Source of the DNA: Paramacrobiotus metropolitanus
Lineage: Eukaryota > Tardigrada > Eutardigrada > Parachela > Macrobiotidae
NCBI RefSeq assembly: GCF_019649055.1
Contig: NW_026570546.1
Coordinates: 1-50,037, forward strand
Length of the DNA stretch: 50,037 nt
Reading direction: 5' to 3'
Shown here: in pieces, positions 5,701-50,037 of the stretch
Layout: each line of letters begins with the position of its first letter
Numbering within the stretch: the first letter of the stretch is position 1
Program-made: the position numbers and the translations under genes
The notes under the pieces: model-generated
Databases searched by the model: none
Seen by the model: only the letters and a program-made list of their open reading frames with translations
Told to the model about the DNA's origin: nothing

Positions 5701-6264
5701 GCAATCAGTTTCCATTTGTAAATTGGCTTCCTTGCTCGTCCACGGTTCAGTTGACCGTTGGCCTTGGATTGTTGCACGTATATAATACTGTGCTACGGGC
5801 CGAGAAGCCAGTTGGTCCGAAGAGGCAATGAATGCACTGGCAAAATCTTGGCGACGGATTTAAGTACTGCTCATCTTCTGACTTCCGCAATTTGCAGGGA
5901 ACTTTCGCGCTCAAGTTGCACAAGAGAAAAGATCGCAAATCTCCACAACCATCGTTAACGGTTTCGGAAAAACGGAATTCCAGGATGACCAGTGGTTAAA
6001 CTCCACCGATCCGGCTAATGAAAGTGGTTTCCTGTCTGCAGACCGGTTTTGGCCAAACAATACTGTACCTTTCATTGTTAGCCAGTCATTAGGTAAGATC
6101 GCCACACCCAAACGGAGGAGCAGCTGTATAATATACTGGCGGCTCCATAATTTTTAATCAATTGCTTTTTTAAAAATTAAGTTAAAAAGCGCATTTTCAG
6201 CGTAATTGTCACGTATTGCGAAATACTTATATTTGTTTATTCAGCGAGCCAACCAGAGAACTGA
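2761..6264 (+). CDS. Astacin-type zinc metalloprotease fused to two LRR/LRRCT modules
   Basis: Exon model: 2761-2884, 3263-5634, 5898-6092 and a short last exon (about 6245-6264); all junctions are GT-AG and in phase. One or more 5' exons (signal peptide, propeptide) lie upstream and are not resolved. The catalytic domain (M12A family) has the zinc site HEILHALGMYH at 3369-3401, followed by EHCRPDR, and the Met-turn SIMHYG at 3528-3545 with its tyrosine, so activity is expected. A Cys-rich region with leucine-rich repeats follows, closed twice by LRRCT-like blocks (CSCELAWLRQWW near 4310; CTCEYFWFRSW near 5225). Each is followed by a PVDC...FSINEP.C motif (about 4453 and 5468). It is probably secreted or cell-surface; the LRRs could bind a substrate or partner (inference). 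Exon 5898-6092 has no start codon of its own but is open and phase-consistent. The paralogue lies at 16.6-18.1 kb. Confidence 0.85.
2885..3262 (+). other. Intron of the astacin gene
   Basis: GTAAGT donor at 2885 and TTTTTCAG acceptor ending at 3262. Joining 2884 to 3263 gives ...FQPGEN-CSSYLG, matching the astacin pattern in which a Cys-x-Ser segment follows the first strand. The homologous intron in the second gene is 16751-16840, at the same codon position and phase. Confidence 0.8.
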
Positions 6265-18463: not shown

Positions 18464-20334
18464 TCAAAAAGTCCACCATCCCTTTAGAGTCGTTTCTCGC
18501 GTCCACTTTTGAAGATTGACGAGGAGATGTAGGGTGATGCGCGACAATTTCTCCAACTGCAAATCTTGCAGACCAACCCGGCACCACTTTTTTCCGCGGT
18601 AGTGCGAGGACGGACGCGGATCAGCTGACTGTGCCGCGCACAGCGTCTGTAAGAGCCACTATTCATAAGGAGCATTTGACAGGCACAACCGTTCTTTCTA
18701 CCTTGCACACGGCGTTTTCCATTTTGCGGTTTTTATAGAAATCCCCGTCCACTTGGAAGCGCTGGTGTAGCGCGTGCAGCGCCTGCTCACTTAACCCCGG
18801 CAGCGCCGCCTCAACTGCATCCCAAAACGCGCAGTCGAACCCACTGCCCAGCGGCAATCGCGCCGTACCGATGTGCACCTGCATCTCCGTTATGAACTCC
18901 ATGGTTGTGTACCGCCGGTGCTCCGCGTTGATCTGAAAGCTGCAGACCAGGTAAACGAGGCAGTTGGTCATGCGAAGAACGGTGCCGCTGGGCAGATTGC
19001 GGCATCGCTTGACGAAATCCTCCAGCCAAACATAATCGTAATCCTCATTCGAGCGTGATTGGTGCAGGCCGCATTCGGGATGCTGTTCACGGCGCAGTGC
19101 TGTTCACGGCGCATTGAACCAAAAAGTCAAACTGGACACGGTGTAGATGAATACTTGGCAAGTGGATAGCGGTTTGATGAGCAGCAACATAGCGTATCAT
19201 GTCGCACGCTATCAAGGCGTAATCATAGCCGATCCGCTCTTTCAGGGGCGTTATGACAACCCGTTGCGTGTCGGGATGTAAGCATTTGAACACCGTCGCC
19301 AACCAGAGAAACTCATTTCGATCCTTGTTGCGGATGTTGTCTTCCTCCATGCGGATGACGATGATGGAACGCAGCGCTGGCGTATCCATGATACGGTTCC
19401 ACGATATACACACAGTACGCAGCTTCATCTGCATTACGGTGTCCAAGTGAGAAAAGACTTCCTGCCACAATTCCAGTGGCAACGGTAACTGCGCCATCTC
19501 GTCATCGAATACATCGACAGACTCAGAAAGATTCAGGATCAGGCTACCCTGCTCCTCGTGGAGACGGATAAGACTTTTCTGAGAACCACGAAAAACATTT
19601 TATAAACATTGCTGTATTAAGCTATTCCAAGTTTTCATCTGCTAGATGACGGTAAAAAATCTCGTAAAAATTTAACAGCGTAGCATTCTTCTTACCGGCA
19701 AAGCGTCTTTCAAGAAGCACCGTTTTTCTTTAGAATTCGGCTGACAGATGTACTTCAGCTCGCCGCCTACGATTTCCACTACGTAAATCCGTTCGTTGAT
19801 ATGGAAACGCTGGAGATTCAATCGCTGAATGAGAGCCTCGGCTGCTTCCGTGGACAGCGAACGGAATTCCTTGCCCAGCTGCACACAGCGCTTAATGAAG
19901 GCTCCTCGGTCGATGCGATCTCGAGGTGAAGGGTGAGCAGCTTTTCTGTTGGCATCGCGAAGCAGGCGAACGCGATCCATGGGGACGAAGTCGGTGCACG
20001 CTTCTTTCGTGTCTGGGCGCTGCCAACGGATCACGCCAGCCGTTTCGTAGTAGTACGACCCAGCCCGCCTTACGCAGCTCATTTCAGCTGCGACCCAAGT
20101 CCACGGATCCGCTGCAGTCGCCCGCAGGACCTGCACCGGAAGGTTGGTCATTTGTTTGACAGAGATTCCGTACAGGTTGCAGCTCCTTGGGCGCGGAAAG
20201 AAAACACTGCCGAATGGCGCATGTTCGCGTGGCCGACTGGGACAGAGATAGACGAAGACCCCGTCGTCGGCCACGTCGACGACGCGCCCGAAGCGCGTCT
20301 GTTAATCGCTGTCCACAATGTACACGGCCAGCAT
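18464..20334 (-). pseudogene. F-box family copy A (Tudor-like N-terminus, F-box, LRR-like C-terminus), broken
   Basis: Exons 20334-19696, 19578-18702 and 18646-18464, with GT-AG junctions in phase 0. The N-terminus keeps the tandem Tudor/Agenet-like pattern (GRVVDVADDGVFVYL; NLPVQVL; WTWVAAEM; CTDFVPMDRVRL). The second exon has the F-box (LPLELWQEVFSHLDTVMQMK...RTVCISWN). The last exon has the family signature QSADPRPSSHYRGKKWC. Two lesions are visible: a TAA at 20302-20304 (codon 11, where copy C has Gln), and a 17-bp tandem duplication at 19081-19114 that shifts the frame in the LRR-like part. Beyond the shift the frame continues with good family similarity. It faces copy B head to head across about 220 bp. 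Confidence 0.75.
19081..19114. repeat. 17-bp tandem duplication that breaks F-box copy A
   Basis: TGCTGTTCACGGCGCAG at 19081-19097 is repeated at 19098-19114 with one mismatch in the last base. Seventeen is not a multiple of three, so it moves the minus-strand reading frame of copy A. Confidence 0.9.
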
Positions 20335-20556
20335 TCTGTTTGGTGCGGTTGACGACGTTGGGCACTAACCGGATATACACTGCCAGAGCTGAAGTCAGCG
20401 TGTCGATGCAGGTAGTTGCAGTGTTGTCTTCGATAGAATTTTTATCCCTAGATTCTGCACTTTTCCTTGCTTGCACCACTGCTTCTAATAAACCTGTCAA
20501 TCAGACGTGCTGCTTTGTTGTTCTTTGTCACTTTTGCCCAAAATCCACCGACAACC
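20335..20556. promoter_or_regulatory. Intergenic region between divergent F-box copies A and B
   Basis: 222 bp separate the two start codons, so any promoter must be shared or back to back. I see no clear TATA box or repeated motif. The call rests only on gene orientation and distance. Confidence 0.35.
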
Positions 20557-22500
20557 ATGTCCCGGATCGGGCCAGATGAAGTCAACGTTGTGGACGCCGG
20601 CAACGCCCTGCTGTACGGGCCGCGTGGTGGACCTAGCGGACAACGGACTCTACATCGACCTACAGCCTCCCGAGCGTCGCCGCGAGTTCGTCCCCTTCGA
20701 CCGAATCTTCCTCACGGTTCCTTCGAAAGACTGGGTGCTCGCTTTCCCAAATGGCAGGATGGTGCGCGGAAGAGCGTTTCAGTGGAAGTGCTAAGCCGCG
20801 AAAACTACGGCGATGCGGGGCGCTGGTGGCCCGCGGAAATGCTGAACTCGCACCCGAAACTAGCGTGCGCCGTCGTTCAGGGACGAAACGACAGCGGCGC
20901 CACCTGGACGGACATCTTCCCACTGCACCGCGTGCGCTTGCCGGTACCGGATGGCTAGGGACAGCGTAACCAGCAGCCGGAGGCGGGGGAGATGACCACG
21001 CCGCCCCGGCCCATTCAACCGGCCGATATGGAGAAGGAGCGTCTGCCGCTGCCGGGCGGATGTAGTGCGGCGTCCGCAGCACAACTCTGGCAGGCGGTGC
21101 AGGAGCTGCAGTGGATGAACCATCGGGCCGTCGGCATCGACATTGCGGATGGGCAGCAGCAGCGTGTTGTGTACCGAGTCACGGTAGACGACGGTGAATA
21201 AGAAGCGTTCCCTACGCTGGTTTTTGTACGATATCTATAAGGACCGCCGCTATCAGGTTTGTCTCGTTCTTTAATTTCTCGTGCTACTTGAAACAACCGC
21301 ATTCGCCTGCTTCCATTGGCGTGCCGAATTTGTTGATTTGATTTATTCGGGAAGAGCTTAAAGAATTGGAAGAGGCCCTGAATCCGCTGATCCGCCGTCT
21401 AGCGGACATTCTGCGCCGACCGTGGGTTTCTGTGGAACGCGAGACGCCGGAAGCTTGGCGGGCGGTGCCGACGGATGTGTGGCAGCAGGTCTTCGCCCAA
21501 CTCGACACCCTGACGCAGAATAAGCTGCGCGCGGTGTGCGCAGCGTGGAACGCCCTCCTGGACGCCCCGTTTCTAACGGGCAACATCGTCATCCAGGCGA
21601 GCACCGCCACCCGTAAACCGTTGCCGCATATCTACTATTACTATCTAACGGCGTCCCTTTTTAAATGTCTGGGTCCTTCCACTAATCGTCTCATCTTCCA
21701 CGGCATCAGCGCCGAGGATTTTCAGCCGTGGCGGACATGCTTCACTACATGGCACAGACGCATTTCGGAATCCATCTTCCGGCGCTCTATGTGGTCGGCG
21801 GCACGGACTTCCTCCCGGAACTTCAGGTGCTCGGACTTCCTTCCTCCAGCTGGCTGGATTTATACGACAGCCTGTTTTATAATGCGGGCCGCTGCATGGT
21901 GCACAGTCGCAGGGTCTGCCGTGTGGGACGATGCATCTGGTCGGGTGTTCGGTGCACCAGCGATACTACAGCGTGCAGCTCTCATCCACCACTGTCAAGA
22001 AGCTGGACTACCCGTTGCCGGTGGCGCGTCTCCCGCTGGGCGGGGACTGGGCGTCTACACTCTGGGAAGCGATGGGGGGAGCGCTGCCTGAGCCCAGCGA
22101 AGATTAGCTGCGGATCCTGGCCGAGTGGTTGGCGGTGGTCGCTGCAGAGAAAAAAAACGTTTCCTCGCGGAGGCCGTCTGCAGAGTAAGTGTTGTATTTG
22201 AAAATCCAGGCGGTTTTGCTCCACACACAACGCTTGCCACAACGACTTGATTTGTTTCTAGCGTTGAAGCCTCTTCGATTTCTAAGATTTTCTTAGGCTG
22301 CTAGCCTGTATTTTCTTGTTAGGTAGGCTTTGTGCGCTACCCAGTCCGTTGATCCGCGTCCGTCGGCGCACCGCCGCGGGAAGCGCTTGTGTGAGGAAGG
22401 ACTGCAGGAGCAGCGCTTGAACATTCTTCCCCGTACCGCCCTCCGCTTCCTTCTCGTCATGCCAGAAATTCTGTGTCAAGCTAGCGAGGAACTCCCACGG
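20557..22500 (+). pseudogene. F-box family copy B, multiply broken homologue of the intact copy E
   Basis: Close relative of copy E (45.2-47.3 kb). The first part (20557-20958) keeps VVDLADNGLYIDL, FVPFDRIFL and WWPAEMLNSHPK but needs two frame changes (near 20620 and 20740). A TAG follows VPDG (20956-20958), where E has Trp. The acceptor before the F-box exon reads TTATTCGG instead of TTATTCAG (near 21350). The F-box exon has WQQVFAQLDTLTQNKLRAVC, then a frameshift near 21725 and a TAG after EPSED (near 22105). A degenerate last exon lies at about 22325-22500. It is a true pseudogene with several independent lesions, and its 3' flank also resembles that of E. Confidence 0.8.
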
Positions 22501-23281
22501 CAGTAAAGCGTCTGTGAAGGGACGGGATGGTTCTTCTCCTCGTTCCAGTTCAATGTTTCCTTTAAAAAGATATGGATCCTGCAATACCTAAATTATTGTC
22601 TTTCCGGTTGTGTAGTAAGTATTTTCAGGACAACCCCGGCGTCTCCACTAATGTTGCTGTAGTTTGTTTTTAACAAATGCTTTCATAACGGAGTTTCTGT
22701 ATCTTGTGACTCTTGCGCTTACCTTCAGTGCATATTGATAATTTTGTAATTTGTTGCTTCTGTAAGTATTTGTTTGGTAGCTTGGCTCCGAATAATTTCA
22801 CGTACGAAACGACTGCAGAACGGAGAAGACGTCGTTACGGGTACTCGTCAGGTGCTACCGTGCGTTCTGTTGATATTTGCGTTTCATCAACACTGCAACT
22901 GACCAGATGTAATGCGTAGACCGGTGCTATAAAGATCAGCCAAACTTCTGGAGGTTGATTTGCTTCCGTAAAACGACTGCGCCGAAGATGCTGCTCTCAA
23001 ATTTTTTTTAAAAGAAAATACAACTGTTTTTCCTATTATTCACGTCTTAATGTAGTAACAGTGCATATACTTTTGTTAGTTAACTTGTAAAGGTGATGGT
23101 CTGTTTGTCTTGTGGACGTCTCGAGATTGCAGCACTCTTACTCCGAATGCAGTTTTCTACCGTTTCTAAAGTGCAGCTTTGTACAGATTTCTTTGCAGTC
23201 ACTTCTTCGTTGTTTGTTCTCTACTCCGAGTGTACCGTGTCCATTGTTAAGTAATCTTGCAATGGTGCCATTGGTCCAGCC
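22501..23281. other. Stretch without a recognised gene
   Basis: The segment about 22858-22910 (CGTTCTGTTGATATTTGCG... CACTGCAACTGACC) resembles 47572-47620 downstream of copy E, so the duplicated block extends past the F-box genes. Otherwise nothing recognisable. Confidence 0.5.
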
Positions 23282-24602
23282 ATGGCCGAGAAGTGCTCAT
23301 CTTTAAAACTAGCTTGCGAGCGACTGGAACTTTTGCCTCGGCATCACGCTCTGTTCCTCCTGAAAAGCTGTCTTGGAGCTCCAAAAATTATATACATGCT
23401 GCGCTGCTGCAACGCCTGGAAACAACCGCAGCAGCTGTACCTACTGGACGAAACCCTGAGGCTGTGTTTCCAGTCTCTGTGCCATGTGCGCACCGGACAC
23501 GATGACTACCCGTGCTGGCGGCAGGCGACACTCCCAGTAAGCAGGGGCGGTATTGGCATTCGTAGAGCGGAGGAATTAGCACTTCCAGCCTTTCTGGCTT
23601 CGATTCATTCCGCATCCGACTTGGTGCCGCTGTTGCTTCCTGGTCACCCCGTTGCAGATGTTACAGGCGCCTTGGAATTGTGGAAGAGTAAAGCGCGTCT
23701 CCCAGACCTTTCCGAACCAGCTTTTCGTAAAGCACAGCGCACATGGGACCTCCCGCTGTGCAATGTGTCTTTGTCAGCTCTGCTGGACATTTTTCGCGAC
23801 GATGAAGTCAACCGTGCTCGCTTAATGGCTCAATCAACCTCGGAAGCAGGCCTATCTATGGTTGAATGCCTTACCCTCCGCACACATCGGAAATCTCCTT
23901 GACGACGACACAGTGAAGATTTCGGTCGGTCTGAGACGGCGTAAAGATCTGCGAGCCACATTTATGACAATTTTATGTGCGAAGTGTCACAAGTCCGTGG
24001 ATGCGTATGGCCACCACGGCTTATTTTGCTCTTTTTCCGCTGGGAGACACGCACGCCACGGCGGCTTGAATAGCATTGTGTTTAGATCGCTAGTGTCAGC
24101 CGGCATCCCGGCTACGCTGGAACCCGGGGAACATCCCACACGTCCGATCGTCGTCCAGATGGGTGCACAACCTTTGCCTGGAAGCGCGGTATGTGCCTGG
24201 CATGGGACGTGACCTGCGTGGATACCGTTGCGATGTCTCATCTGCAGTCTACGTCAGTTACCGCAGGAGCTGCTGCTGCGCAGGCCGAAGATAAAAAAAT
24301 ACGACTGTACTCGTTTTTGGAGGGTAGATATATCTTCACTCCACTAGGTTTCGAAACCCTTGGACCATGGGGGAAGGTAGCCATACTCTTAGTGAAAGAA
24401 ATCGGCAAACGACTTCAGCTACACACGGGTGAACCTCGCTCCCATGAATTTCTCCGCCAACGGTTGTCACTAGAAATTCAGCGGGGCAACGCAGCTTCAG
24501 TACTCGGAACAGTGGATGGAGCGGCAGCTTTAAATGAAATTTTGTTGTTGTGATTTTACTGTTCCTTTTCAACCTTTAATCTACTCGCGTTTATGAAATA
24601 AA
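23282..24602 (+). mobile_element. 5'-truncated LINE-type retrotransposon (copy 2, best preserved)
   Basis: Three overlapping frames, needing two shifts, give a continuous C-terminal polyprotein. A post-RT segment comes first (RHHALFLLKSCLGAPKIIYM; RQATLPVSRGGIGIRRAEEL; ALPAFLASI). Next come NALPSAHIGNLLDDD and a zinc cluster CAKCHKSVDAYGHHGLFC, then an endonuclease-like core DVTCVDTVA...SVTAGAAAAQAEDKK, and GFETLGPWG. It ends QRLSLEIQRGNAASVLGT...NEILLL-stop at 24553, with AATAAA at 24597-24602. The catalytic RT motifs (YADD) lie upstream and are absent. The order is that of elements with a C-terminal restriction-like endonuclease (from memory), but the clade is not certain. Confidence 0.85.
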
Positions 24603-25017: not shown

Positions 25018-25650
25018 TTTAAGACACGGCGACCTTTACCTTCAGGTTCCTCACACCCCGAAACTGCGGTTCTAAGACACGGCGACCCTGACCTTTGGGT
25101 CGCCGTGTGACCTTTAGTGACCTTTAAGTTTCCGACACCCCGAAACTGCGGTTCTAAGACACGGCGACCCTGACCTTTGGGTCGCCGTGTGACCTTTAGT
25201 GACCTTTAAGTTTCCGACACCCCGAAACTGCGGTTCTAAGACACGGCGACCCTGACCTTTGGGTCGCCGTGTGACCTATAGTGACCTTTGTCCCCTTTAG
25301 GTTCCCGACACCCCGAAACTGCGGTTCTAAGACACGGCGACCATGACCTTTGGGTCGCCGCGTGACCTTTAGTGACCTTTGTGACCTTTAGGTTCCTCAC
25401 ACCCCGAAACTGCGGTTCTAAGACACGGCGACCCTGACCTTTGGGTCGCCGTGTGACCTTTAGTGACCTTTGTGACCTTCAAGTTCCCGACACCCAAAAC
25501 TGCGGTTCTAAGACACGGCGACCCTGACCTTTGGGTCGCCGTGTGACCTTCCGTGACCTTTGTGACCTTTAGGTTCCCGACACCCAAAACTGCGGTTCTA
25601 AGACACGGCGACCCTGACCTTTGGGTCGCTGAGTGACCTTTAGCGACTTT
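25018..25650. repeat. Hairpin minisatellite, 82-91 bp period, about seven units
   Basis: Units start AAGACACGGCGACC at 25021, 25074, 25156, 25238, 25329, 25420, 25510 and 25600 (spacing 53, 82, 82, 91, 91, 90, 90). The longer units contain an extra TTTGTGACC-type 9-mer. Most units contain ACACGGCGACCC-8 nt-GGGTCGCCGTGT, a perfect 12-bp stem, and three or four TGACCTTT octamers. The unit near 25329 has a G-to-A change in the stem (GACCATG) and a CGCCGCGTG arm. The minus-strand open frame across the 90-bp units is a by-product of a period divisible by three. Confidence 0.95.
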
Positions 25651-28600
25651 ACAGTTCCCGAAACCACACAACCGCGATCCTACGGAGCTTAAATTTCTCA
25701 ATCTTATGTGCTTACACAGCAAACTATACCTCTTGATTTTTGGTGTGCACGTTAGTGTTGCAGTAATCAGCATTATGCGTCATTTCTGAATAAGATGGGC
25801 TACTTTTAGCATATTATGAGATAACGTTTAACATAACGTTTCTCTTAATGCAGGCGACTACAGACCATAATATCACGTTAAGGCGTAACGCAATGTTGTC
25901 GTAACGAGCCGCGGGTACTGTGACACAATGGCGATGCTACAACTTTAAGCTACAATTTATTTACCATGAGGGATATCACGTTACCTCAACAGATAACGTG
26001 AGCGTACAAAGCTGCATTTATTGCATTTAATGCATTTATCCGTGTTTCACTGCTTCTTGCCTTAACTGGCTTAAGTTTGCGTTATTGTGACTGTTAGCTA
26101 TAACAATGAAAGCAAAAATCGTAACTGCTTTACTTCGACTCACCCGAACTGCAAGAGGTTATCGCAAATGCAGCTGGCTGACGTTACTTTAATCGGTTGT
26201 AGTTAACACAGCGGTTCGTTGTAATGGGCCACCACTAATAAGTTTAGCCTTAACTAAGGTTACGGATTTGCGTTACAGGGACGTTTGTTGTTTGATAATA
26301 ATGAATTTAATGCCTTCTGCAACGGTACAAAGTCGCCTCACGCACACAATAAGATAACACGCATATAACTGGGGGCAAAACTGGACAAAATCAAACTCAA
26401 AATTTGCGTACTCTAACGTAATAATTCAAAATTACCGTGGGAATAACAGCTATCGCACCGATCTGCAGTGCGGTAGACTGATTTTTGTTATTTTCGAGAC
26501 TGGCTTTAGTTGCTGTAACGAGCGATGGTAACTGTTACGGGCTTCCTCAGCATAATGAACCACGGTCTCAGTCACCGCTACCATGGAAGTCTAAGGTTAC
26601 CGTAAGGGATTCGCACTAACGACACGCCTACCCACATATCGTTTCTGCCAAAATCTGCAGACTTATCCCATTAAAAACTGCAGTTCCCGTACCAGATCAC
26701 CGCTATAGTAGCAAATTACAGCACATTGAAACGATTGCTGCTGGGACATTATTCTTTTAACGTTTCCGAATGCTTGCTAACGTAATGGGCTCAAGAAACC
26801 ATAAAAGGATACGATACTGTTATGTAATGTTTTACCGCTGTGCTAAGCAAATTACCGTGAGCGTAACGTTTTCTCTCGTCAAAAATTTACGGTTACAATG
26901 ACAGGTCATAGAACGCTTACGGAAAGCATATTTCTTGCGCAACATCCTGCTTTCACTGGTTGGTGGATAGCGTGTAAAGTACCTGATACCCTTCATTAAA
27001 CTTATAACTGTAAAATAGATGGTTAAAACATTACAAGAAGAAAACCTTCCATATAAATACATTAATTATCGCATTTTTGGCTCCCGGAAATAAGAGCCCC
27101 ACTGCATCAAGCGCACCTCACCTAGCCTGTATAATAACACCTCCTCTCGAAATTACGCCCTAGGGAGGCATTTATAAATATAAAGCCTTGCAGGATGATA
27201 AGAATGCTGCAAGTTGCCTCACAAAAGTTGTTGCAGTTGTGAGCAAACAATGAACATTCTTTTGCAGAATTTCTACGTAACTAAATATATGCTGACAATA
27301 TTGCTGGCACGATTAGGCGGTTGCATGTTCCGGCAACTATTATGTTCGCGTTTGCTAGAACAGAATGCGCAGTCTTATAAACTACGGTGTCTTTCCCAAA
27401 ACATATCGTTCAAGAAACAATGACACCTTCCGAGATTGCGCCCTTCCCAAAATAAGCTCCCTGTGTCATAGCCTTAGGCTTATATGTACCCCAAGGCCGC
27501 GGATTCCCCAATTACAGTAAGAAATTTTATTGATACGTTTCGGTGGAATATCTTTTGCTCGAACGCAAACACAGATTTCGCTATAACTTTAAGTTGCACG
27601 CTAGCGTTCTACATATCGAGTTTAAGCTTGATTTAAAGCAGACTTTATGTAGAGCCACTGTTCAGTGGTTTAAAAGGTTAGTTAAATTATAAGCGGATTT
27701 TGAATGTCTAACGCTCCCGTTTCGTGAGTGAGTTTGCTTTCTATCACAGCGGCAACAAACGAAGAAATAATTTGCGCAATTCAGTTGCCCGATGCACATA
27801 TCTGCGTTATATTCTACTGCTTATTTAGTAATTAAATTCACTGTATTTTAGGCCCTTTATTTGAAGTGAAATTGCAGGTGTTTTAGAACTGAAATCAGTT
27901 AGGCCTTGCTGATTTGCATACCCACTTATCCCAGGAACTCTTTTCGATAAATATACCCCACTTAAACGAAAGCATCAGAAGGACAAGACAGATTCAGTCG
28001 ACCAGTACAGAGTTTCAGTATGCATCTTTTCTTGATGGGTGTTACAGATCATATTCAAAATAATTAAATTTAATTTTAAAAAAACTAAGAAAACAATTTA
28101 ACAATAGACACTTTAACTGAACTTTGTTCGCTTGCGTATCAAAGTTGCACACTTCGTTTATGTTAATATTAGTAGTAAGTAAAAGTAAACTTTGTAATTT
28201 GTTTGTTGCGGAGGTTCAACTAGCTGCTAATTTCAGTTTAAAAATCAAATGACCATTTTAATCTTGTCATCCAATGTTTTCTTGAATGTCTGGCTTGGAC
28301 GAAAAGGTTTGTTTCGAAACGTTTCTTGCAAAGATTTGTTTTCATCGCTTTTGTTTATTCCACTGAATGTATAGTACATACTTTATTGTATTCTGCTTAC
28401 TTTATTTACTGCTTTACAACTTGATCACCTCTGGCTGCTATTGTACTAAAATTATGAAACAGATTTTTTGGTTCAGAGGGTAAACTGCACGAGTGATACA
28501 AGGCAATCATCCTCACAGAATAAGCAACATGCCGGACGGCTAAAAGAAGTGTTGAACGTCTTTATCTGTTGTTTGATAAACTGGGTGGATTTTGAAAAAA

Positions 28601-31714: not shown

Positions 31715-33558
31715 TCACCTTTTAATCCAGGCTGCCCACTCCTGTAGTTGCACGAGGAAGTGCAGGGACATGCGCGACAACTTCTCCAACCGCAAACCTC
31801 CCAATCCGTACACGCATCACTTCGCCCCGTTGTAATGCGCCGACGGATGCGGTCCGGCCAACTGCAGTACGCCCAGCATCTGCAAAACGAATCGGCACTG
31901 TAGCGACTTTCAAGTTGTAACAGAAATCGGATGCAGAACAGGCAAATCTACCTTGCAGAAAACTCTTTTCACTTCTTCCTCGTATCTCGGGTTCCCACCC
32001 ACTTTCAACCGCTGAAGCAGGTTTGGCAGCTGCTGCAGTTTCTCCTCACTGGGTAGCGACAGTGACGCCTCCATCGCCTTTAACAATGCGCCGTGGAAAG
32101 CACCACCAAGCGACAACCGAACGTTGGCGAAGTTGACTGACAGAAAAGCTTCATAACCATAGTAAGAAGTCCAGTTCAAAGAGACATTCCCGTTAACGAT
32201 GTGGAGGGTCTCGCATGACAGATTGTGGCCGACGGCGAGCGAATCCTTCAGCCAATAAAAAATTAAAATCCGGCTTGGGCCGACCTCTGGGAACTCTTCC
32301 GCGGCGCCGTGTATCAACAAGCGAAGTTCGGCCTTAAGCAGATGCAGGGAACGCAGTCGGATGCCGGGATGTTGGTCCGCCACGTACTGGATCATGTCGC
32401 ACACCAGCATCGCATAATCCATGCCCTTCAGCTTCTCTGACAAACGCTTAACGAGAACACGCTGCGTGGCGGGGCGTAGGCAGTGGTGCAGCGTCGCCCA
32501 GCCGAGGAAAGCGTCCGTTCCGCATGTGGCGGTTCGGATGACGATCAGGGCTCGCAACGCAGGTGAATCTATCATCTGATTCCAGGTAGAGCAGACCGCA
32601 CGGAGCTTCGTCTGTTCCACAGTGTCCAAGTGGGAGAAGGCTTCCTGCCAAAATTCCGTCGGCAGCGCCACCAGCCCCACCAGCGCCATCTCGTAGTCGG
32701 TGGCGAAAGTCTTGTTAGGAAGCCTCCGGGCCGCGCGGATAAAATCCCAATGGGAGATGTCACCTTCACTCTGAAAAAACACAGTCACCCACGGTAGTGG
32801 AACATCGCCGATACAAATGAGCGCTTCGGTTTAATAACCAGTTCACCACCGAACTGGGAAAATTGCTAATTGGAGCGATAAAGCGACCTCTGTTATTCTG
32901 ACACCTGAAAACCAGCGCTCTCTTACCGACGCGTCTTTGGATTCTTCAACCTCGTAAATGTATCGCAACTTCCCGTTCACGATATCCACCGCGACGGCGA
33001 AGGGGAAGCGGGGAATCCGTTCGTCTCTATTTAGCCGTGTGATGAGCACCGCGGCTTCTTCCGCAGGCAGTGAGCGAAATTCTTCGCCCATGTCCACAAT
33101 GCCCTGCTTTAACACGCCGGCGTGACGGAATCAGAGTTGTGGCAGTCTTGGCGATATCCGCGAACGCGGTCGATAGGGACGATGTCGGTATGCGGCATTC
33201 CCGTGTCGGGATTGCGCCAGCGGACAATGGCTGCGTTGAAATATTCAGTTGTAAGACCGCGTCCGATTTGAAGCAATTCAGCTGTCTGCCACACCCAGGG
33301 ACCCGCTGGCGTCTCCGGCACCAGAACCTTCCCCGGGACGATGGAGCGGTGCGGAACATTGCGGAGCGGCGTGGACCAGCAAGGACTCATTGGAATCTCT
33401 GGATTTGCGAAGTAGACGCGGTCGAATGGCGCGTATTTACGGCGCCGATGGGGACAGTGCATGTCGATGAAGAGACCATCCTTCGTTACGCCCACGACGT
33501 GGCCGCAACGCGTCCGCTGGTCACTTCCCCACACGAATAGCGCGTTGAACCTGGACAT
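31715..33558 (-). pseudogene. F-box family copy C, lightly broken
   Basis: Exons 33558-32927, 32770-31952 and 31879-31715, with GTAAGA/TTTTCAG-type junctions. The first exon starts at an ATG and holds both Tudor-like halves (GHVVGVTKDGLFIDM, KYAPFDRVYF; WVWQTAELLQIG, HTDIVPIDRVRG). Its length, 632 nt, leaves two bases over, and the frame changes near 33115 between DSVTP and GVLKQGIVDMGEEF, so one indel is present. The second exon is open with an F-box (LPTEFWQEAFSHLDTVEQTK; RAVCSTWNQMI). In the last exon TGA at 31817-31819 replaces the Trp of the family motif GKxWC. Both lesions are single events, so sequencing error or a very young pseudogene are both possible. It faces copy D across about 740 bp. 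Confidence 0.75.
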
Positions 33559-34300
33559 TCCGTTGGGGCATGGTAGACGATGCTTTATCGTGAAATGGAA
33601 TACACTGAAGTTGGCTACAACGGATTACACTTCACCGAATTCTGAATTGTAATCTTTCAAACCGGTAACGCACGAGTCGGAATATCAATGTTATGCTACC
33701 AAAAAAAGAATCAGCACGCTATGCCTATGGTGTAATTCATCGATCAAGTAAAAATAGCGGTTGAAAATGAGCCGCCAAACTGATATGTGAGCACGAAGCG
33801 GCTGGCTACGATCGTTAAATACAGTACTTAAATGCAGAAACAGTGTATGAGTGCAAATGTGTATCCGTAATTAAAACGTACTATTCTACTTGCACTGTAC
33901 CATTGTTTCAGAAGAAAATGGTGAAAAGCACTTTTTAAAGTGGAACCAGATTACTGATACCACTCTGATTGGTCCGTGGAACGTCGTTCCAAGTGCAACC
34001 GCTGAAAAGGACCGTACCGGTGCAACCGCACAAATCAAGTTGTTGTGCGAGCAGAGAAGCAAATTTATATCGAATGTACAGGCAAATACCACTTGTATTA
34101 AAGCAAATGCGCATGCAGGTTCTGAACGGACTGTGCGGAGCTGCGATTTACGATCACAGATCGCAGGTGGTGGTATCGTAACCCGTCATTATCGATTATC
34201 TGAGCACAATTTGTACAGAAAACCAATATCCTGAACGCTTCGTTATTTCTCATCTGTTTTTCTTCGTAACAGTTGCGCTTCTACCGTGTGCGCATTTCAG
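33559..34300. other. Intergenic region between divergent copies C and D
   Basis: No domain recognised in either strand. The missing 5' Tudor-like exon of copy D would be expected here, but I do not find it. Confidence 0.4.
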
Positions 34301-34301
34301 A

Positions 34302-35908
34302 GGTTTTGACGGAGACTGCCCAGTGCGCACTGTATTCCGTTACGCCCCTCATTTCCCACGGAACTCCATTTTATCTTTCGAGTGCCCAAGCGGATCCAAC
34401 GTACGCCGCGGAATGCACCGCGCCAACGGAATTCCGCGCCCCGACGTTCTTCCTATTCACCGCCCTCACCGCGAGCCGGATCGCGATGAGAACGCCTCCC
34501 TCCGCGAATCCGTCAGTCCCGGGACCTTTATCCTGCTCAGTGTGGATCTTGGCCTAGAATTCCACTCGCTGTCCACAAAAGACACCCGGGCCCTCATTCA
34601 GCGACTGAATGCCGCCCCGCTGCATTCCGACTGCGGTGATTTCTCCGTGGTCGGTCTCGCGGAAGGGATGCATTTGCAAGCTGGCTGCGACAGAAGAACT
34701 GGATTGGTCGGAAAGCCATTTTTCTGTAAGACAAGTCCTTCCTTTATTCTTTCAATGCTCCGCTCATTATGGGTGCTTCTGCTGCAGGGATACGTTGCTT
34801 ATTTACGAAATGAGGTGTTACGCATAATCAAGTGTCTGCCTAACCACGTTCCGGCAACTGCTGACGGCACGGCGATGGGGCTGCCGGCAGAGTTGATGCA
34901 GGAGGTCTTTTCCCACCTGGACGCTTTAAAGCAGACGCAGCTTTGGAATGTGTGCGCCCGGTGGAGCCGGATCATGGAGGCGCCTACGCTGCGTTCCACT
35001 CTCGTCATTCGAATGCAAAACAACGGAATTACCGAAGGAGTCTTCGGCTTGCTGACGGTGCTCCATTGCCTACGTTCCACAACACAACGCCTGATCCTAA
35101 CATCTTCCGAGAACGGGATGTGCGACACCGAGTTCGTCATGATTTTGTTCGACAAAGTCCTTCAGCTGGCCGCACATCACGCCGGCATCCGACTGCGCGC
35201 CATTCATCTGCACCGCGTCCGCCTCAGTTTACTGATCAGTCGCGCTGTAACTGGCAATGATAACGCCTGCGGTCAACACCAGTCCTTTCCTGTATACAAC
35301 AATCCGGAATGGGGCTACTATCGGATGCAGGATTTCGTATCCGTGTGTCGCCGTCTCCCCTGCGATACACTTCACATCGGACCGAACACGGTTGCGGCGT
35401 TGGCCTGTGACTTTTACACTGATCCGTTGCGAATCTATCGAAAGAAAGCGGAAATCGACATCCACAGAACGCGCCTGCCGCTGGATGGCGGTTTCGGCTG
35501 CGCGTTGTGGGAAGCGATGGAGGCCGCACTGCCGGTACCGAGCGATTAGGACGTGCACGAATTGTTCCAGCGCTTCAAAGTGGGCGGGGATCTGCGTCAC
35601 GAAGAAAAGCGGGAGGCACTCCTCTGCACGGTACTGTTGACAGTTTATCCTTCGTTCTGCTCAGACTGGAAAAATTCGTATTGCAGGCGTTGTGTTCGCT
35701 GCAGTCGGCCGATCCGCGTCCGTCGTCGTATTACCGCGGGAAGATGTGCTGTGTGGACGGTTTGGAAGAGGTGCAGGTGAAGAAGTTGTCGCGCATCAGT
35801 CGGCACTTGCTGATTAAACTGCGAGAGCTGCTGGTGGAACGGCAATGGATTACTTTTGAAGGGTCTGCACAGCGCTGTTCCGTGGAAGATTTGCCTTTTC
35901 GCCGCTAA
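34302..35908 (+). pseudogene. F-box family copy D, one in-frame TAG
   Basis: A long exon up to 35630, a 56-bp intron (35631-35686), and a last exon 35687-35908 (74 codons including stop). The frame is open from about 34302. Its N-terminal part aligns only with the end of the Tudor-like region of the other copies, so the first half is missing or unrecognised. The F-box is clear (MGLPAELMQEVFSHLDALKQ; WNVCARWSRIM). The C-terminal LRR-like region includes CRRLPCDTLHIGPNTVAAL. A TAG at 35547-35549 sits between VPSD and DVHELFQRFKV, exactly where copy G has CAG (Gln). Apart from this single change both exons are open to the normal stop. Confidence 0.75.
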
Positions 35909-42764: not shown

Positions 42765-42904
42765 ACGCCGTTTTGTTCTGGTGCATAGTTTGTACTCGTA
42801 CCATGATACTTATTAAAGGTTGTAGGGCTCTGTTTTTTTTATAGGCACCTCTTTACTAAGTGAATTTTCGCACAGAGTACTTAATTATACAACGATACAA
42901 AGCT

Positions 42905-44577
42905 TGTACGACTCAGTACGAGTATTCTTAAACGTTAGATACTGTAATACCTGGGTGATGCGCGACAAGTTCTCCAACTGCACAACCTGCAGGTCGTCGC
43001 GACACCACTTCTTCCCGCGGTAATACGAGGACGGACGCGGATCGCCCGACTGCGCCGCACACAGAACCTGCAGAATCAGTGCGTCATAACAGTACAAATC
43101 GTGACCGAGCATTTGGGAAGATGCAACGATTTGGGCAATCTAGCCCACAGCGATTTCCATTCTGTCGTTTTTACTAAACTCGCCGCCCACTTTCAAGCGC
43201 TAGTGCAATGTGTACAGGTCCCGTTCACTCGCCGCTCCCATTGCATCCCTGTCCGCGCTCCCGAAACCGTCATTCAACTTCAATCGGGTGGTGCAAATGT
43301 TCATCTGCGTCTCCGTTACCAACTGGTGAGTCATGGAACTCTTGATCCTTCGGTCGGATATGAAGGCTGTAGACGATTGAAGCCAGGGGTTGGTCATGCA
43401 AAAAACGGTGTCGCTTGGCCGATCGCGGCAGCGCTCAACGAAATCTCCCACCCATGAGTAATTGTACTCCGTGTTCGAACGTGTCTGGCACAGGCCGCAT
43501 TCGGGATAGTTAGTGCTGTTCACCGCGCACTAAACCAGACAGTCCAGCCGACAACGGTGCAAGTGAATGGTAGGCAGTCGGATCCCGGTCTGGGTATACA
43601 GTATTATGCATCGACCCCAGCGCGATCGCCTCTCACCATTTTTCCATAATAACATTAACATATCGCAACCGTACGAATTACTTCATCGAAAGTGTTAACT
43701 CATCTGTGCTGTTTCTTGTGCTGATGGTTGTTTTTGTTTTTGCTTTGTTCATTTTGCATGTCGTCATAATAATATTCATGTTTTCATGGTACCACCTCTC
43801 CTGTTAGCGTCATTTTATGCCGCATAACACAGACATCATGCATGAGAAGTAATAATTAATTTTTGCACCATCCGCTCGATGGTCGAGCAAAAGCCAGCTG
43901 AATTTAAGTTCAGTGTAGCATTTTACTCACCGCCAAAGTCTCTTTAGAACATTGCTCTTCTTCAGAACTCTTCTCGTAGACGTACTTCAGCTCGCCGTTC
44001 ACGAGAACATAAAAGTGTTACCACCATATAAACGTGAGCGTTGGCATATAAAGGTTAGATATCTAACCGCTGGATGAGCGCTTGGGCTGCCTCCGTGGAC
44101 AGCGAGCGGAATTCCTTGGCCAGATGTACACTGTGCTTGATGAAGGTGCCTCGGTCGATGCTATCGCGAGGAAAGGCTGGACAACGTCGTTATTGGCATC
44201 CCGAAATAGGGAACGCGTTCCATTGGGACGAAGTCGGTGCAGGATATTCCCCTGTCGGCGCTATGCCCACGGACGACGGACGATTTCGTGGACACGCGGC
44301 TTAGCGCGCTTCACAAAGTTTATTTCACCGGCGACCCAGATCCACCGACCCGATGGCGTCTCCCGCACCAGAACTTGCACCGGATTTTTGGTCAGTTGCT
44401 CGACTGGGAAGTTCAGGTCGTTGAACGCATGGGGCGTGGAAAAGAGATACTGCCGAATGGCGCATATTTACGTGGCGCACTGGGATATAGATAGACAAAG
44501 AGACCGTCTTCGGCCACGTCCACGACGCGCCCGCAGCGCATCTGCTGATCGATGCCCACAACGTAAAAGCCCTACAT
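42905..44577 (-). pseudogene. F-box family copy F, badly decayed relative of copy A
   Basis: Reads from an ATG at 44577 whose second codon is TAG, then CGRVVDVAEDGLFVYL and the Tudor-like parts to about 44200 with frame changes. The F-box itself is not recognisable: the part that should contain it is missing between about 44050 and 43530. The LRR-like part resumes at 43523 (NSTNYPECGLCQTRSN; VGDFVERCRDRPSDTVFCMT). The last-exon signature QSGDPRPSSYYRGKKWC lies near 43050. The YPECGL and VGDFV blocks are closest to copy A, so A/B and F/E are equivalent divergent pairs. Confidence 0.7.
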
Positions 44578-45223
44578 TCCTCTGCTGTGATTGATGAAGT
44601 TGGGCACAAAACGGAGAACACTGTTCTGCTTAGGATGGACTCAGCGGACTTGATTTACGGGCGCAAAACGTATTTGTCGTCCGATATGTATCTGAACCAC
44701 TCTTACTTATTTTCATCAGAAAAAATCAGAAACTTTCGGAAGATGTTTATAGAAGTCCAACCCTTCCTGCGGTTTTTTTAACTTTTGGTAGTTTGTTCGA
44801 CAACGCTGATTGATTGGCGGTCTATAGCCATTAGCCACTACCGTGGGCCCGTGGCAGTGGCAACAGCCCCAGTTGTAGGCTTTACGGTAGCCTTCTAAGC
44901 TCCAGTAGCGTCGTGATCTGAATTGGTCACGCCCCACACGTCACTAATTTGGGGAGGAGCAGCAGAAGTCCTCTCTTCCGAACTTGACGTGCATCTGAAA
45001 ATTCAGCGATTTTCCAGATTTTCTGCTTGCGGAGAAGTTATTTATATTTTCGGATGTTTTAGAGACCAGAATAAATGAGTTTCAAGTGGTGGTGACTTGG
45101 TGTGAAGTGTTAAGTATTTTATTGGTTAAAGTCTGAAGAGCACTACGTGCCCCTTCGTGGTTTGCTTTTCGATCTGTCTAATTTGTTTGCTTTGTCCGTC
45201 TGGTAACAAACCCATCGTCAGCC
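44578..45223. other. Intergenic region between divergent copies F and E
   Basis: Longer than the equivalent A/B gap (646 against 222 bp). It contains a GC-rich self-complementary patch (CCACTACCGTGGGCCCGTGGC near 44836) and a segment shared with 31165-31210. No gene recognised. Confidence 0.45.
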
Positions 45224-47274
45224 ATGTTGCGTGTAGGACATGAAGATATCAACGTTGTGGACCCCGATAACGCCCTGCTGAACGGCCGCGTTGTGGGCTT
45301 GGCGGACAACGGGCTGTACATCGATTTGCTGTCTGCCAACCGCCGCCGTGATTTCGTGCCCTTCGACCGCGTTATCCTAACGGATCCATTCAGAACACTG
45401 GATGCTCCCTATCACAAATGGCCGGAGGGTGCGTGCAAGACCGTTCCGGTGGAAGTTCTGCGCCACGACGATCGCAGCGGTGTGTGGCGCTGGTGGCCCG
45501 CGGAAATGCTGAACTCGCACCCTAAACCAGCATTGGGCGTCGTCCAGGGACGGGACGACAACGGCGCCACCTGGACGGACATTTTTCCGTTGCGCCGCGT
45601 GCGCTCGCCGGTGCTGAACGGCTGGGGACAAAGTTGCCAACTACCGGAGGCGGCGAACACGACGGCGCTGCCTCGGTGCCTTCAACCGGGCGATCTGGAG
45701 ATGGATCGTGTGCCGCTACCGGCCGGGTGTCTTGCGGCGTCCACAGCTCAGCTGTGGCAGGCGGTGGAGGAGCTGCGTTGGACGAACGAGCGGGCCGTCG
45801 GCATGGACATCGCGGATGGAGAGCTGCAGTGTGTTGTGCACCGCGTCACGGTGGACTATGCTGAATATGAGCAGTACTTCCTAGGCTGCATTCCCTACCA
45901 GTACTATAAGGACCACCGCTATCGGGTTCGTCTGGCTACTCATTTCCTCATCTCACCTGAACATGCCACGCTGTTTTAGCTGGTGTGTCTAACTTATTGA
46001 TTTAATTTGTACAGAAAGAGCATAAATCGTTGGAGACGGCCCTGAGTCCGCTGCTCCGTCGTCTCACGAGGATTCTGCGTCGACCGTCGCCGCATGTGGA
46101 ACGGGAGACCCCGGATGCTTGGCGTGCCGTGACGGCGGACAGTTGGCAGCAGGTCTTCGCCTGTCTCGACACGCTGACACAGAATAAGCTGCGCGCGGTG
46201 TGCTCAGCGTGGAACGCCATCCTGGATGCCCCGGTTTTAACGGCCAACATCGTCATCCAGACGAGCACGGCCACTCGGGAACCGCTCATGCCTATCTGCT
46301 ATTACCATTTGGTGGCCCCCCTCTTTAAATGCCTGCGAACCTCCACCCAGCGTCTCATCCTCTACAACCTCAACGGACGTGATTTCTCCACCGTGGTGGA
46401 CATGCTGCACAACACGGCGCAGACCCATCCCGGAATCCATCTCCTGTCGCTGTATGTCGTCGGTGGCACGGACTTCCTCCCGGCACTGGGCCGTCTCGAT
46501 TTCCTGCCCAACATGTTTTCCAATGGGGACCGCTGCACGGTACACGATTTGGACTACCAGGGACGTCCATATCGTGCAGCCATGCAGGACTTTATCAGCG
46601 TACTACAGAGTGTACCCTGTGCAACGCTGCATCTGGCGGGGTGCAAGGTGGGCTTGTGGTACAGCGTGTATCTCGCGGCTCCGAATGTCACGCACCAGAA
46701 CTTCCCGCTGCCAGTGACCCGTCTGTTGCTGGGCGGGGACCGGGCGTCCGTCCTGTGGGAGGCGATGGAGAAAGCGCTGCCGGTGCCTAGCGAGGACGAG
46801 CTGCGGGCCTTGGCCGAATGGTTGGCGGGGATCCCTGAAGGGAAGATGAGGAAGTTTTATCATGGGGCTGTGTGCAGAGTAAGTGCTGCATCTGAAAATC
46901 ATGGCGGTTTTCCTTCACACACGATTGCCACACCGACGTTTCTAAAGGTTTGGTCAGTTCGCGTAAACGGTTTCTCCAACCGATCTCCACACATTACGTC
47001 TTATACGAAGTATACAATTTGAATTCGTTCACGATCATTCAGTCTTCAACAATCGGTCGGCATTCTGCTTGTTGGACAGGCATTGTGCGCTACCCAGTCG
47101 ATGGATCCGCGTCCCTCCGCGCACTACCACGGAAAGCGCTGGTGCCTGGACGGGCTGCAGGAGCTGCGCTTGGACCAGCTGTCGCGTACCGCCCTGCGCT
47201 TCCTCCTCATTCTGCCGGAATTTTTGCGTCGAATTAGCGACAAACTCTCACTGGAGTACCGGAAGCAACTGTGA
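45224..47274 (+). CDS. Intact F-box protein with FMRP-like tandem Tudor/Agenet N-terminus (copy E)
   Basis: Exons 45224-45925, 46015-46878 and 47080-47274, all phase 0, give 586 residues with no lesion. Residues about 10-125 show two Tudor/Agenet-like halves: first NGRVVGLADNGLYIDL...DFVPFDRVIL, second VPVEVL...WRWWPAEML...TWTDIFPLRRVR. This is the spacing and key pattern of the FMRP/FXR tandem Tudor region (recognition by eye). A linker with PLPAGCLAASTAQLWQAVEE follows. The second exon opens with an F-box (DSWQQVFACLDTLTQ; KLRAVCSAWNAIL) and continues as an LRR-like region (TLHLAGC; LPVTRLLLGG). The third exon holds QSMDPRPSAHYHGKRWC. F-box proteins recruit substrates to SCF ubiquitin ligases through Skp1; Tudor-type modules bind methylated ligands. 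A role in degrading a methyl-marked or RNA-bound protein is inference. ATG context and downstream ATTAAA are plausible. Confidence 0.85.
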
Positions 47275-48149
47275 GCTGACGGCTTTGTGCCTCGTCCCAC
47301 TGCATTTCCGTCTTCCCTGGTGGAGCGTTGGGAGTATACAATATGCGAAATTATTGTTTTTTCGTTGGGAAGTAGTTTCAAGATGGTTTATTTGGTGGTT
47401 CTCCTCTAATGATTGCGTTGCTGTAGGTTATTTCTGTGTAGCGTAGTTTGCGTAACGGGTGACTCCTGTCATTTGGGTTTCATGGACTGATTATTTGCTT
47501 CTTTTGCCAGTATTACTTTGGTTGTACATTAATTAAAGATTCGAGAACTGAACAGACGTCGGGTGCTATGTGCGTTCTGTTGATATTAAATTTTCCGTTT
47601 TATAAACACTGCAGCTGACTAATCGTTACTAGTAAGTATCGCTGCTGTAAAGAACAACAGAACTTGAAGAGGTCGATTTGCGCCATACAAGTAAAGTAAA
47701 CGAGCCAAACATGTTGTTTAGAGCGCGTACTTTTACCGGAAAGATATTTTTTCAATGGATGTTTTACTGGAGAAACGATATACCTTTGCACCGACGAACA
47801 AAATTTCTAGCTTCACGGAAAGCGGTACAAGTCGCCGCAAAGGAGAACAAGAAATCATTGACTTCCAATTGGTACGTTACAGCACCGTATTCCACACATT
47901 TTCATTTCGGGATGCGTTTCCATCAAACCGAACGTAGAAGAAAATGCAGAGCAGAAGTTTTATCAAATGTTCTTCCAAAGCCGAATAAAAATCCAGAAAA
48001 GTAGCGAAACCTTAGGAGCACAACATATAGAGATGAAGGACATAAATGATAACGAGACTACAGCATCAGCGAGATAAAGCAGATTATATGAGCCACTAAA
48101 TTCCTTAACGAAACACTAGTTGCTGACCAAATCATGATGCTCACGCAGA
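47275..48149. other. Stretch without a recognised gene
   Basis: Includes the 3' flank of copy E, with the segment 47572-47620 that is shared with the flank of copy B. The frames at 47678-48004 have no recognised domain. Confidence 0.5.
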
Positions 48150-49690
48150 TTAGTGTCCTAACGCCAAAACAGACACGGAGCAGTGCCGTGCAGACCCTTC
48201 CGAAGGAATCCAATGCAATTCCACCATCAGCTCACGCAGTTGATCGAGCAACTGCCGACCGATGCGCGACAACTTCTCCAGCTGAACATCTTCTAAGCCG
48301 TCCACGCACCACTTCTTCTCGCGGTAGTGCGACGAAGGACGCGGATCGGCTGACTGCAGCGCGCACAGCGCCTGCAAAAAGAGTTTTTACAGTCTGAGCA
48401 GAACGAAGGATAAACTCTCAATAGTACCGTGCGGAGAGTGCCTCCAGCTTTTCTTCGTGACGCAAATCCCCGTCCACTTTGAAGCGCTGGAAGAGTGTGT
48501 GGACGTCCTGATCGCTCGGTACCGACAGCGCCGCCTCCATCGCTTCCCATAATGCACAGCCGAAATTACCATCCAGGGGCAGTCGCGTGCTGTGGATGCG
48601 GATTTCCGCTTTCTTTCGATTAATATTCCAGTTCAACGGATCTGTGTCAAAGTCACAGGCCAACGCCGCCACCGAGTTCGGTCCGATGTGGAGTGTATCG
48701 CAGGGTAGACGGCGACACACGGAGACGAAATTCTTCATCGAATGAAAGCCCCATTCCGGATCTTCGTACACAGGAGAAGACTTGTGTTGACCGCAAACAA
48801 CATTATTGCCAGTAACAGCGCGACAGATGAGTAGATTCAATCGGACGCTGTGCAGATGAATGGAACGCAGTCGGACGCCGGGGAGAAGGGTCGCAACCAG
48901 AAAGACCTTGTTGAACACCCTCACGACGAAGTAAGTGTCGCACATCCCGTTCTCGAAAGATGTTAGGATCAGGCGTTGTGTAGTGGAACGTAGGCAATGG
49001 TTGACCGTCTGCAAGCCTAAGTACCCTTCGGCAAATCCGTAATTTCGCCTTCGAATGACGATAGTGGAGCGCAGCGTAGGCCCTTCCAGGATTCGGTTCC
49101 ACATGGCGCACACATTTCGCAGCTGCGTCTGCTTTACAGTGTCCAGCTGGGAAAACACCCCCTGCAACAACTCCGCTGGCAGCCCCATCACCATGTCGTC
49201 AGCCGTTGCCGGATCGCGGTCAAGCAGGTACTTGATTTTGCGGAGCACTTGATCACGGAGGTACTCAAGAAAACCCTGCAGCAGAAACATCCACAAAGAC
49301 CTGAACATTGGCGAGTACAGGAACGAGTTGATCCTTACCGGCAATTCAGCCGTTTGTGTTTCGACCAGCTTGCAAACGCCTTCCAACTTTCCCTCCACGA
49401 GACTGACCACAGAGAAGTGCCTGCAGTAAGGATGCAGCAAGGAGCCGTTCAGTCGCTTGATGAGCGCCTGGGTGTCTTTTGCGTACAGACAGCAAAATTC
49501 TTGGCCAAGATTCACACTGAGCATGATAAGGGTCTCTGGGGCAACGGAATTGCGGAGGGCGGCGTTTTCATTGCGATGCGCAACTAGACGAGTGCGACGA
49601 GTGGGAACGAGGGCGGTACGACGCGCGATTCCGTTGGTGCGGTCTATTCCGTTGCGTGCGTTTTGCCCGTTTGGGCACGCGAAATGTGAA
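48150..49690 (-). pseudogene. F-box family copy G, closest to copy D, one-base deletion
   Basis: The main exon is open from about 49690 to 48428 and the last exon is 48371-48150, separated by a 56-bp intron of the same size and position as in copy D. The F-box is intact (MGLPAELLQGVFSQLDTVKQ; RNVCAMWNRIL), as is CRRLPCDTLHIGPNSVAAL, and the codon that is TAG in copy D is CAG here. Near 48430-48440 one base is missing relative to D (CACTC-TCCGCACG against CACTCCTCTGCACG), so the splice to the last exon falls out of frame. The last exon itself is open (LCALQSADPRPSSHYREKKW). The first Tudor-like half is not visible. The lesion could be a sequencing error. Confidence 0.75.
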
Positions 49691-49818
49691 GCAGAATTCC
49701 GTCGTCAATCAATTGCCTAACGTAATCCAACGCGCACTGGAGAGTCTCCGTTAAAACCAAAGCACACGCGTCAGAAGCCCAATAAGTACGAGCGACAATA
49801 TACAAAAAGATAAATTAA

Positions 49819-50037
49819 TTAGGCTGTTGGTTTTCTGTACAAACTGTCCAAAGAAAAATCTAGGAAATTCCATCTGCTGTGATCGTAATTCGTCGTTCTG
49901 CAGAAAGTGCTCAAAATGTGCCCGTACAACTGGTTCACTACAATAACCTGATTTCCCTGGCGGGGCTGTTTGTATGGTTGCAGCGGAGTTGGTTTTTTAG
50001 CGGATGCACTTTGTACGGTGTGCAACTGACCAATCAT
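49819..50037 (-). other. Open frame running off the window edge
   Basis: 72 codons are open on the minus strand to the last base, ending RWNFLDFSLDSLYRKPTA. No family recognised. It might be the end of an exon that starts outside the window, or chance. Confidence 0.2.

Follow-up and report, generated by a model that had tools for sequence, protein, structure and literature searches.

The F-box domain is an established route into SCF ubiquitin ligases, which it joins by binding Skp1. Lineage-specific F-box families have been described in animals, and the Caenorhabditis F-box A2 genes carry at their N-terminus a HTH captured from a Tc1/mariner transposase (PMC12062965; this and the other papers cited here are drawn on in part). 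Fragile X proteins have also been connected to this machinery, as SCF-Fbxo4 acts on FXR1 (PMC5688124), and the tandem Agenet of FMRP interacts with FUS (PMC5430443). In the main text of the F-box A2 report, the terms tudor, agenet, FMR1 and tardigrad are all absent. No description of a fusion between a fragile X-type module and an F-box, or of an F-box expansion in tardigrades, was found among the papers listed in literature searches (subscription papers and preprints excluded); the preliminary description of the present locus had called the architecture unfamiliar from model animals.

The window analysed here is a stretch of 50,037 nucleotides (bases 1-50037 of its contig) from the tardigrade Paramacrobiotus metropolitanus, whose genome was searched as 169.8 Mb in 533 contigs. 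It holds seven copies (A-G) of one gene family, among which copy E very probably encodes an F-box protein with a fragile X-type N-terminal module. This gene, as predicted from the best splice model of the genomic DNA, lies on the forward strand between an ATG at 45224 and a stop ending at 47274, exactly the bases first proposed for it. The joining of 45224-45925, 46015-46878 and 47080-47274 results in 586 amino acids with no inner stops, so that copy E, which had been described as intact, does look intact in its predicted form. Three open frames lie behind the model: one at 45182-45979, which holds the ATG at 45224, a second one at 46006-47022 with the F-box, and a last one reaching the stop at 47274.

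Exon 1 (45224-45925, forward strand) encodes Tudor1-like (residues ~8-55), Tudor2-like (~72-127) and KH0-like (~155-217) regions, and its assignment is based on the open frame, the profile match to the genome's own FMR1, Foldseek and the placement of the donor site. The inferred first intron (45926-46014) reads GTTCGT...ACAG. Of 13 relatives inspected, 6 have a CAG followed by GTT[CTA]GT close to where exon 1 ends; this simple pattern gave no match in the remaining 7. Exon 2 (46015-46878) contains a linker helix, the F-box (~40-80 of the exon) and a tail that is LRR-like at best, as derived from a Pfam F-box match, the alignment with other copies and weak AF2, Foldseek and VIA results for the tail. 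Exon 3 (47080-47274) encodes a short conserved C-terminal end of the DPRPS.HYRGKKWC.DGL type.

The relation of exon 1 to Tudor proteins is seen through profiles. As a single sequence, exon 1 of copy E found no Pfam match at E<=1 and just two ferritin sequences in the PDB (E 1.4), and therefore family profiles were needed. The motifs first noticed in copy E are indeed there, with VPF at residues 45-47 and VPVEV...WRWWPAE...TDIFPLRRV further on, and most of them are conserved among 32 family members: L79 and W90 in 32/32, P46 in 31/32, and F47, E77, W88 and D119 in 29/32 each, with V45 being variable (V in 9/32, I in 12/32). Against the N-terminus of the genome's own FMR1, a 13-row family profile gave an hhalign probability of 93.5 (P 2.2e-7, 146 columns), and the 32-row profile a collinear match with a probability of 95.1 (P 3.2e-8). 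A 19-row profile scored 46.0 against FMR1, compared with 29.1 for the best of 200 FMR1 shuffles and 12.8 for the reversed protein; the 19-row family HMM did not reach the FMR1 locus in HMMER at E<0.01. When the domains were compared separately (32 rows), P was 9.8e-8 for Tudor1, 0.0091 for Tudor2 and 0.059 for KH0, and thus support at this level is strong for Tudor1 and weak for either Tudor2 alone or KH0 alone.

Among PDB sequences, the 13-row profile placed the tandem Tudor of FXR2 at rank 1 (E 0.2), and the 32-row profile (177,635 sequences searched, 13 matches at E<=10) placed FXR1 (E 0.025), FXR2 (0.026) and FMRP (0.075) at ranks 1-3, both printed alignments being collinear over the two Tudors and none of these fragile X E-values passing 0.01. 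The similarity to FMRP/FXR Tudors anticipated in the preliminary description was thus recovered by profile search, with modest PDB E-values (0.025-0.075).

Structure prediction gave a more uneven picture. The AlphaFold2 model of exon 1, built from ten window sequences, has a mean pLDDT of 50, with 74-84 over residues 71-130 (barrel 2) and no more than 55 in barrel 1 and KH0 (ten-residue blocks). In Foldseek, ranks 1-6 of this model were all FMRP Tudor-Tudor-KH0 chains (E 4e-5 to 2.5e-4, 208-223 columns), followed by FXR1/FXR2 at ranks 7-9. TM-scores to FMRP were low (0.18-0.24), which, together with the poor overall model, indicates that the Foldseek match rests on local structure. The pair of barrels first proposed is then borne out by modelling in its second half, whereas barrel 1 is poorly modelled and rests mainly on sequence. 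Taken as a whole, the match to the own FMR1, the PDB ranking and Foldseek support a relation of exon 1 to fragile X proteins specifically, as the initial label of an FMRP-like tandem Tudor had implied.

A different reading takes the N-terminal exon for a tandem barrel of the Royal family (Agenet or another Tudor type), whose FMRP likeness would be either convergent or very old, and not derived from FMR1. When the 32 members were scanned singly against Pfam at E<=1, Agenet was touched by three (best E 0.043), S1 by two, KH_9 by none and Tudor_FRX1 by one (E 0.001), the latter being probably L022, a locus itself retrieved with the Tudor_FRX1 model. For barrel 2, VIA also ranked PHF1, TDRD3, SGF29 and further Tudors on a par with FMRP, generic Tudors reaching up to Z 6.4 and FMRP (4ova) Z 5.7 (rmsd 6.6, 63 aligned), with some non-Tudor barrels scoring close to the Tudors. 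However, the fragile X proteins fill the first ranks in both the PDB and Foldseek searches, the collinear match extends into the start of KH0 of the own FMR1, and two loci bridge the family and the Tudor_FRX1 model (see below), all of which makes a Royal-family origin quite improbable. The name Agenet is not preferred, as it fits worse than FMRP in the PDB and Foldseek rankings; from the original "Tudor/Agenet" label we keep the FMRP-type Tudor, whereas the Agenet part is the weaker one.

In exon 1, the Tudors are probably followed by a KH0-like domain. This region falls inside the Foldseek alignment, and its evidence in sequence is the above-mentioned comparison with the own FMR1. None of KH1, KH2 or RGG was detected in copy E (Pfam at E<=1 for exons 2 and 3, RGG by eye), and the F-box is the only Pfam model matched by exon 2. 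The absence of these three elements indicates that the family of copy E is not an FMR1 gene.

The own FMR1 is the only KH_9 match in the genome (G000:C5:3431600-3434600, reverse strand), and also shows Tudor_FRX1 and KH_1 Pfam matches. Compared with the PDB, it matches the FMR1 protein with an E of 4.1e-46 (2qnd), and its N-terminal module with 2.3e-35 to 6.7e-35. Its coding region reads as a single uninterrupted frame of ~570 amino acids from an ATG before the Tudor region, which means that a capture of the 5' part in the form of one exon would have been possible. Between FMR1 and the family stand the two bridging loci, L025 and L026, which pass Pfam Tudor_FRX1 (30.5 and 27.3 bits, cut-off 25.9) and are also matched by the family HMM (E 0.008 and 5e-5). 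They belong to a set of loci (L021-L031, 11 of the 20 places matched by Tudor_FRX1) that was chosen with this same model and is therefore a biased sample. In this set, the family HMM also matched L021 (2e-7), L024 (6e-6) and L028 (8e-5), and left L023, L029, L030 and L031 unmatched. An F-box is present in L022 and L027, and partial F-box-like matches occur downstream of L021, L030 and L031, for which the label "without F-box" is not firm.

Fragile X Tudors are readers of methylated lysine in the case of FXR1, whose pocket residues include V66, Y95, W97 and E104 (PMC2970552, consulted in part). When these columns were placed by the 3kuf alignment numbering, in which W97 falls on an Ala and is not placeable, V66 was found as V in 25 and I in 4 of the 32 rows, and E104 as D in 29 and E in 2. 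The Tyr95 column holds Gly in 13 rows, Trp in 13 and Tyr in none, and so the fragile X pocket, as defined by the V66, Y95 and E104 columns, is not reproduced in these 32 rows. Copy E has Gly at the Tyr95 position, and for this reason it probably does not read methyl-lysine in the fragile X way; judging from the same column, the members with Trp might do so.

The F-box first proposed for copy E is detected by Pfam at 18.3 bits, under the cut-off of 20.5, and in copy C (32555-32665) at 34.8, over it. The tail after the F-box is also present as described, although its LRR identity is weakly supported and unproven. The tail of copy E has no Pfam match at E<=1, its model reaches a pLDDT of 52, and its best matches are the LRR of tropomodulin in Foldseek (E 0.046) and NLRP9 in VIA (Z 4.6, rmsd 5.2, 122 aligned, from a poor model); none of the three methods could demonstrate a genuine LRR tail. 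The terminal exon is well conserved among relatives, and a Pfam scan of it gave no match at E<=1.

The joining of the F-box to the N-terminal module, first seen in the window, turned out to be systematic in the genome. In 20 loci randomly drawn from the best 150 scored exon-1 matches, family HMMs found an F-box downstream in 18 and the terminal exon in 17, the loci without an F-box match being L037 and L050. Six loci (L035, L041, L044, L048, L049 and L050) were not new to the draw, and some of them had trained the HMMs; in the 14 new ones, both the F-box and the terminal exon were present in 13. A chance neighbourhood of Tudors and F-boxes was also considered and discarded, as at least 75 of the best 150 Tudor matches have a same-strand F-box within 3 kb downstream among the matches listed, compared with 10 that have one upstream and 5 for which the downstream F-box lies on the other strand.

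These figures bear on whether the proteins still work with a ligase. It could be argued that this role has been lost, and that the F-box is kept for Skp1 binding or structure in proteins that would act as FMRP decoys or RNP scaffolds. Roles of F-box proteins outside SCF are known, and the F-box of copy E falls under the Pfam cut-off. The regular presence of the F-box in the random loci, the recurrence of its LDT..Q..LR.VC..W pattern across copies, and the four Skp1-family matches in the genome all point the other way, and we see such a loss as very unlikely. An adaptor role in an SCF ubiquitin ligase seems to us the somewhat better bet for copy E, and naming any particular target for its family would be less safe than that.

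The genome-wide census suggested at the outset gave homologues of exon 1 in at least 221 distinct places on 60 contigs. This lower bound is the union of two scored sets: the best 150 of 589 candidates found with exon 1 of copy E (weakest E 5.3e-11), and the best 150 of 930 found with a distant member (weakest E 8.4e-22). Dense clusters lie on contigs C35, C8, C82 and C121, with at least 21, 19, 14 and 13 of the best 150 copy E matches. The initial term of a "local" cluster understates a family that is genome-wide. F-box candidates in the genome amount to 1080, and all of the best 150 scored pass the cut-off, indicating that the expansion of F-box genes is wider than the fused family, which belongs to it. 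For 135 of these 150 best-scored F-boxes, no match among the listed Tudor places lies within 3 kb upstream. Other F-box families have probably also expanded in this genome.

Within the window, N-terminal matches are found in copies A, B, C, E and F. Copy A (19087-20301, reverse) keeps a Tudor-Tudor-KH0 exon (20301-19675) and an F-box exon (19599-19087), and copy C (31910-33624, reverse) a Tudor-Tudor part (33624-33112), a KH0-like one (33130-32846, E 0.0013) and an F-box exon (32830-31910). Copy B (20557-22525, forward; N-terminal match 20557-21198) has an interrupted frame and is 76.9% identical to copy E in DNA over 1286 columns. Copy F (42885-44623, reverse) is a broken relative of A with its N-terminal match (44571-43913) in pieces. 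Copy D (34182-35908, forward) comprises a weak KH0-like part, the F-box and the tail, but lacks Tudor1 and the greater part of Tudor2, and copy G (48128-49847, reverse) is like D in lacking the N-terminal part. Both are matched weakly and from the KH0-like part onward (D, 34182-35546, forward, E 1.4; G, 49704-48421, reverse, E 0.013), keep at most the end of Tudor2 (from the match and by eye), and are 77.3% alike over 1744 columns. Copies A(-)/B(+) and F(-)/E(+) form head-to-head pairs, with A and F 72.0% identical over 736 columns. The divergent pair appears duplicated as a unit (18532-22963 and 42953-47681), and one member of each is broken (B and F) next to the intact-looking E, which suggests that the cluster grew in part by duplication of divergent pairs and that copies decay. 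The window also contains a direct-repeat array with shifts of ~80-90 bases in self-comparison (25031-25682), frames that resemble by eye astacin metalloproteases with further extracellular segments behind them (3168-5831 and 16824-18101), and a frame resembling, also by eye, the C-terminus of a reverse transcriptase from a non-LTR retrotransposon (23255-23902).

Broken copies of this kind would be expected if most of the family consisted of neutral birth-and-death duplicates with no common specific function. Four of the seven window copies are either broken (B and F) or devoid of the N-terminal part (D and G), and large plant F-box families have been read as genomic drift (PMC3030570, consulted in part). 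Yet dN/dS of the N-terminal module is below 1 in all of the 25 closest pairs shown (0.22-0.60), 13 of which involve a single locus (L033, 39-45 codons each), and stop-free matches make up 133/150 of the best rows with the copy E query and 143/150 with the distant member (hand count). An expansion by drift is for these reasons unlikely. As read from the aligned codons, the coding sequence is on average constrained; the F-box reaches a dN/dS of 1.01 in one pair. A FastTree of 43 Tudor regions separates 32 family rows from FMR1 and nine other paralogues, and the F-box-bearing L027 is the nearest to the latter (supports 0.73 and 0.84, with many weak nodes), a topology that is compatible with a single fusion followed by expansion, without proving it.

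Altogether, the likely explanation is a large F-box family in which exon 1 was copied from the N-terminal module of an FMRP-type protein. The copied part would comprise Tudor1-Tudor2(-KH0) and end before KH1-KH2-RGG. The F-box would bind Skp1 and anchor the protein in an SCF ubiquitin ligase, and the FMRP-type head together with the tail would either bind target proteins or guide the ligase to RNP complexes. In this way ubiquitin would be attached to FMRP-like binding partners, or to proteins that an FMRP mimic encounters. The interaction of the FMRP tandem Agenet with FUS, as reported in the paper cited above, suggests that such a head could have protein-protein roles. More speculatively, and with more doubt than confidence on our side, a whole animal lineage could have built hundreds of different ubiquitin-ligase adaptors with an FMRP N-terminal recognition head, each one mimicking the front end of FMRP to find RNP-associated or modified proteins (of the host, transposons or viruses) and mark them for destruction, and diversifying like the nematode F-box families. 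If the fusion is true, the N-terminal module of fragile X proteins can be taken out of its RNA-binding setting and serve repeatedly as the head of a ubiquitin-ligase adaptor, in what would be a natural experiment on the binding partners of the FMRP Tudor-Tudor-KH0 region. With the HTH-bearing F-box genes of Caenorhabditis, it would also provide a second animal case of an F-box expansion following the gain of an N-terminal module.

Compared with the known systems, the family resembles FMRP, FXR1 and FXR2 (4qvz, 4qw2, 4ova, 3kuf, 3h8z) in its Tudor1-Tudor2-(KH0) order, in the collinear profile match and in having them as its best structural matches. It differs from them in showing no KH1, KH2 or RGG, in the F-box that follows the module, in the column of FXR1 Tyr95, which is never Tyr, and in its number, with its many places in the genome against the one KH_9 match of the own FMR1. 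Like the FBXL (F-box/LRR) proteins, it has a tail behind the F-box, and the poor model of this tail bears a weak likeness to LRRs; unlike them, it has an extra N-terminal module, and its tail has no Pfam match and an unproven LRR identity. The SCF-Fbxo4/FXR1 pair, as far as reported in that source, also brings together an F-box ligase and fragile X proteins, which are there partners and substrates in trans, whereas here the module lies inside the adaptor itself. The nearest known precedent is the Caenorhabditis F-box A2 group, which, from the part of the report consulted, is likewise expanded in its lineage, with an N-terminal module added in one exon and under predominantly purifying selection, but with a HTH and a FTH tail there in place of the fragile X-type module and the different tail found here. 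We place the tardigrade genes among the F-box families that expanded within one lineage and carry an extra module at the N-terminus, a kind that was already known, here with a fragile X-type head for which no earlier record was found.
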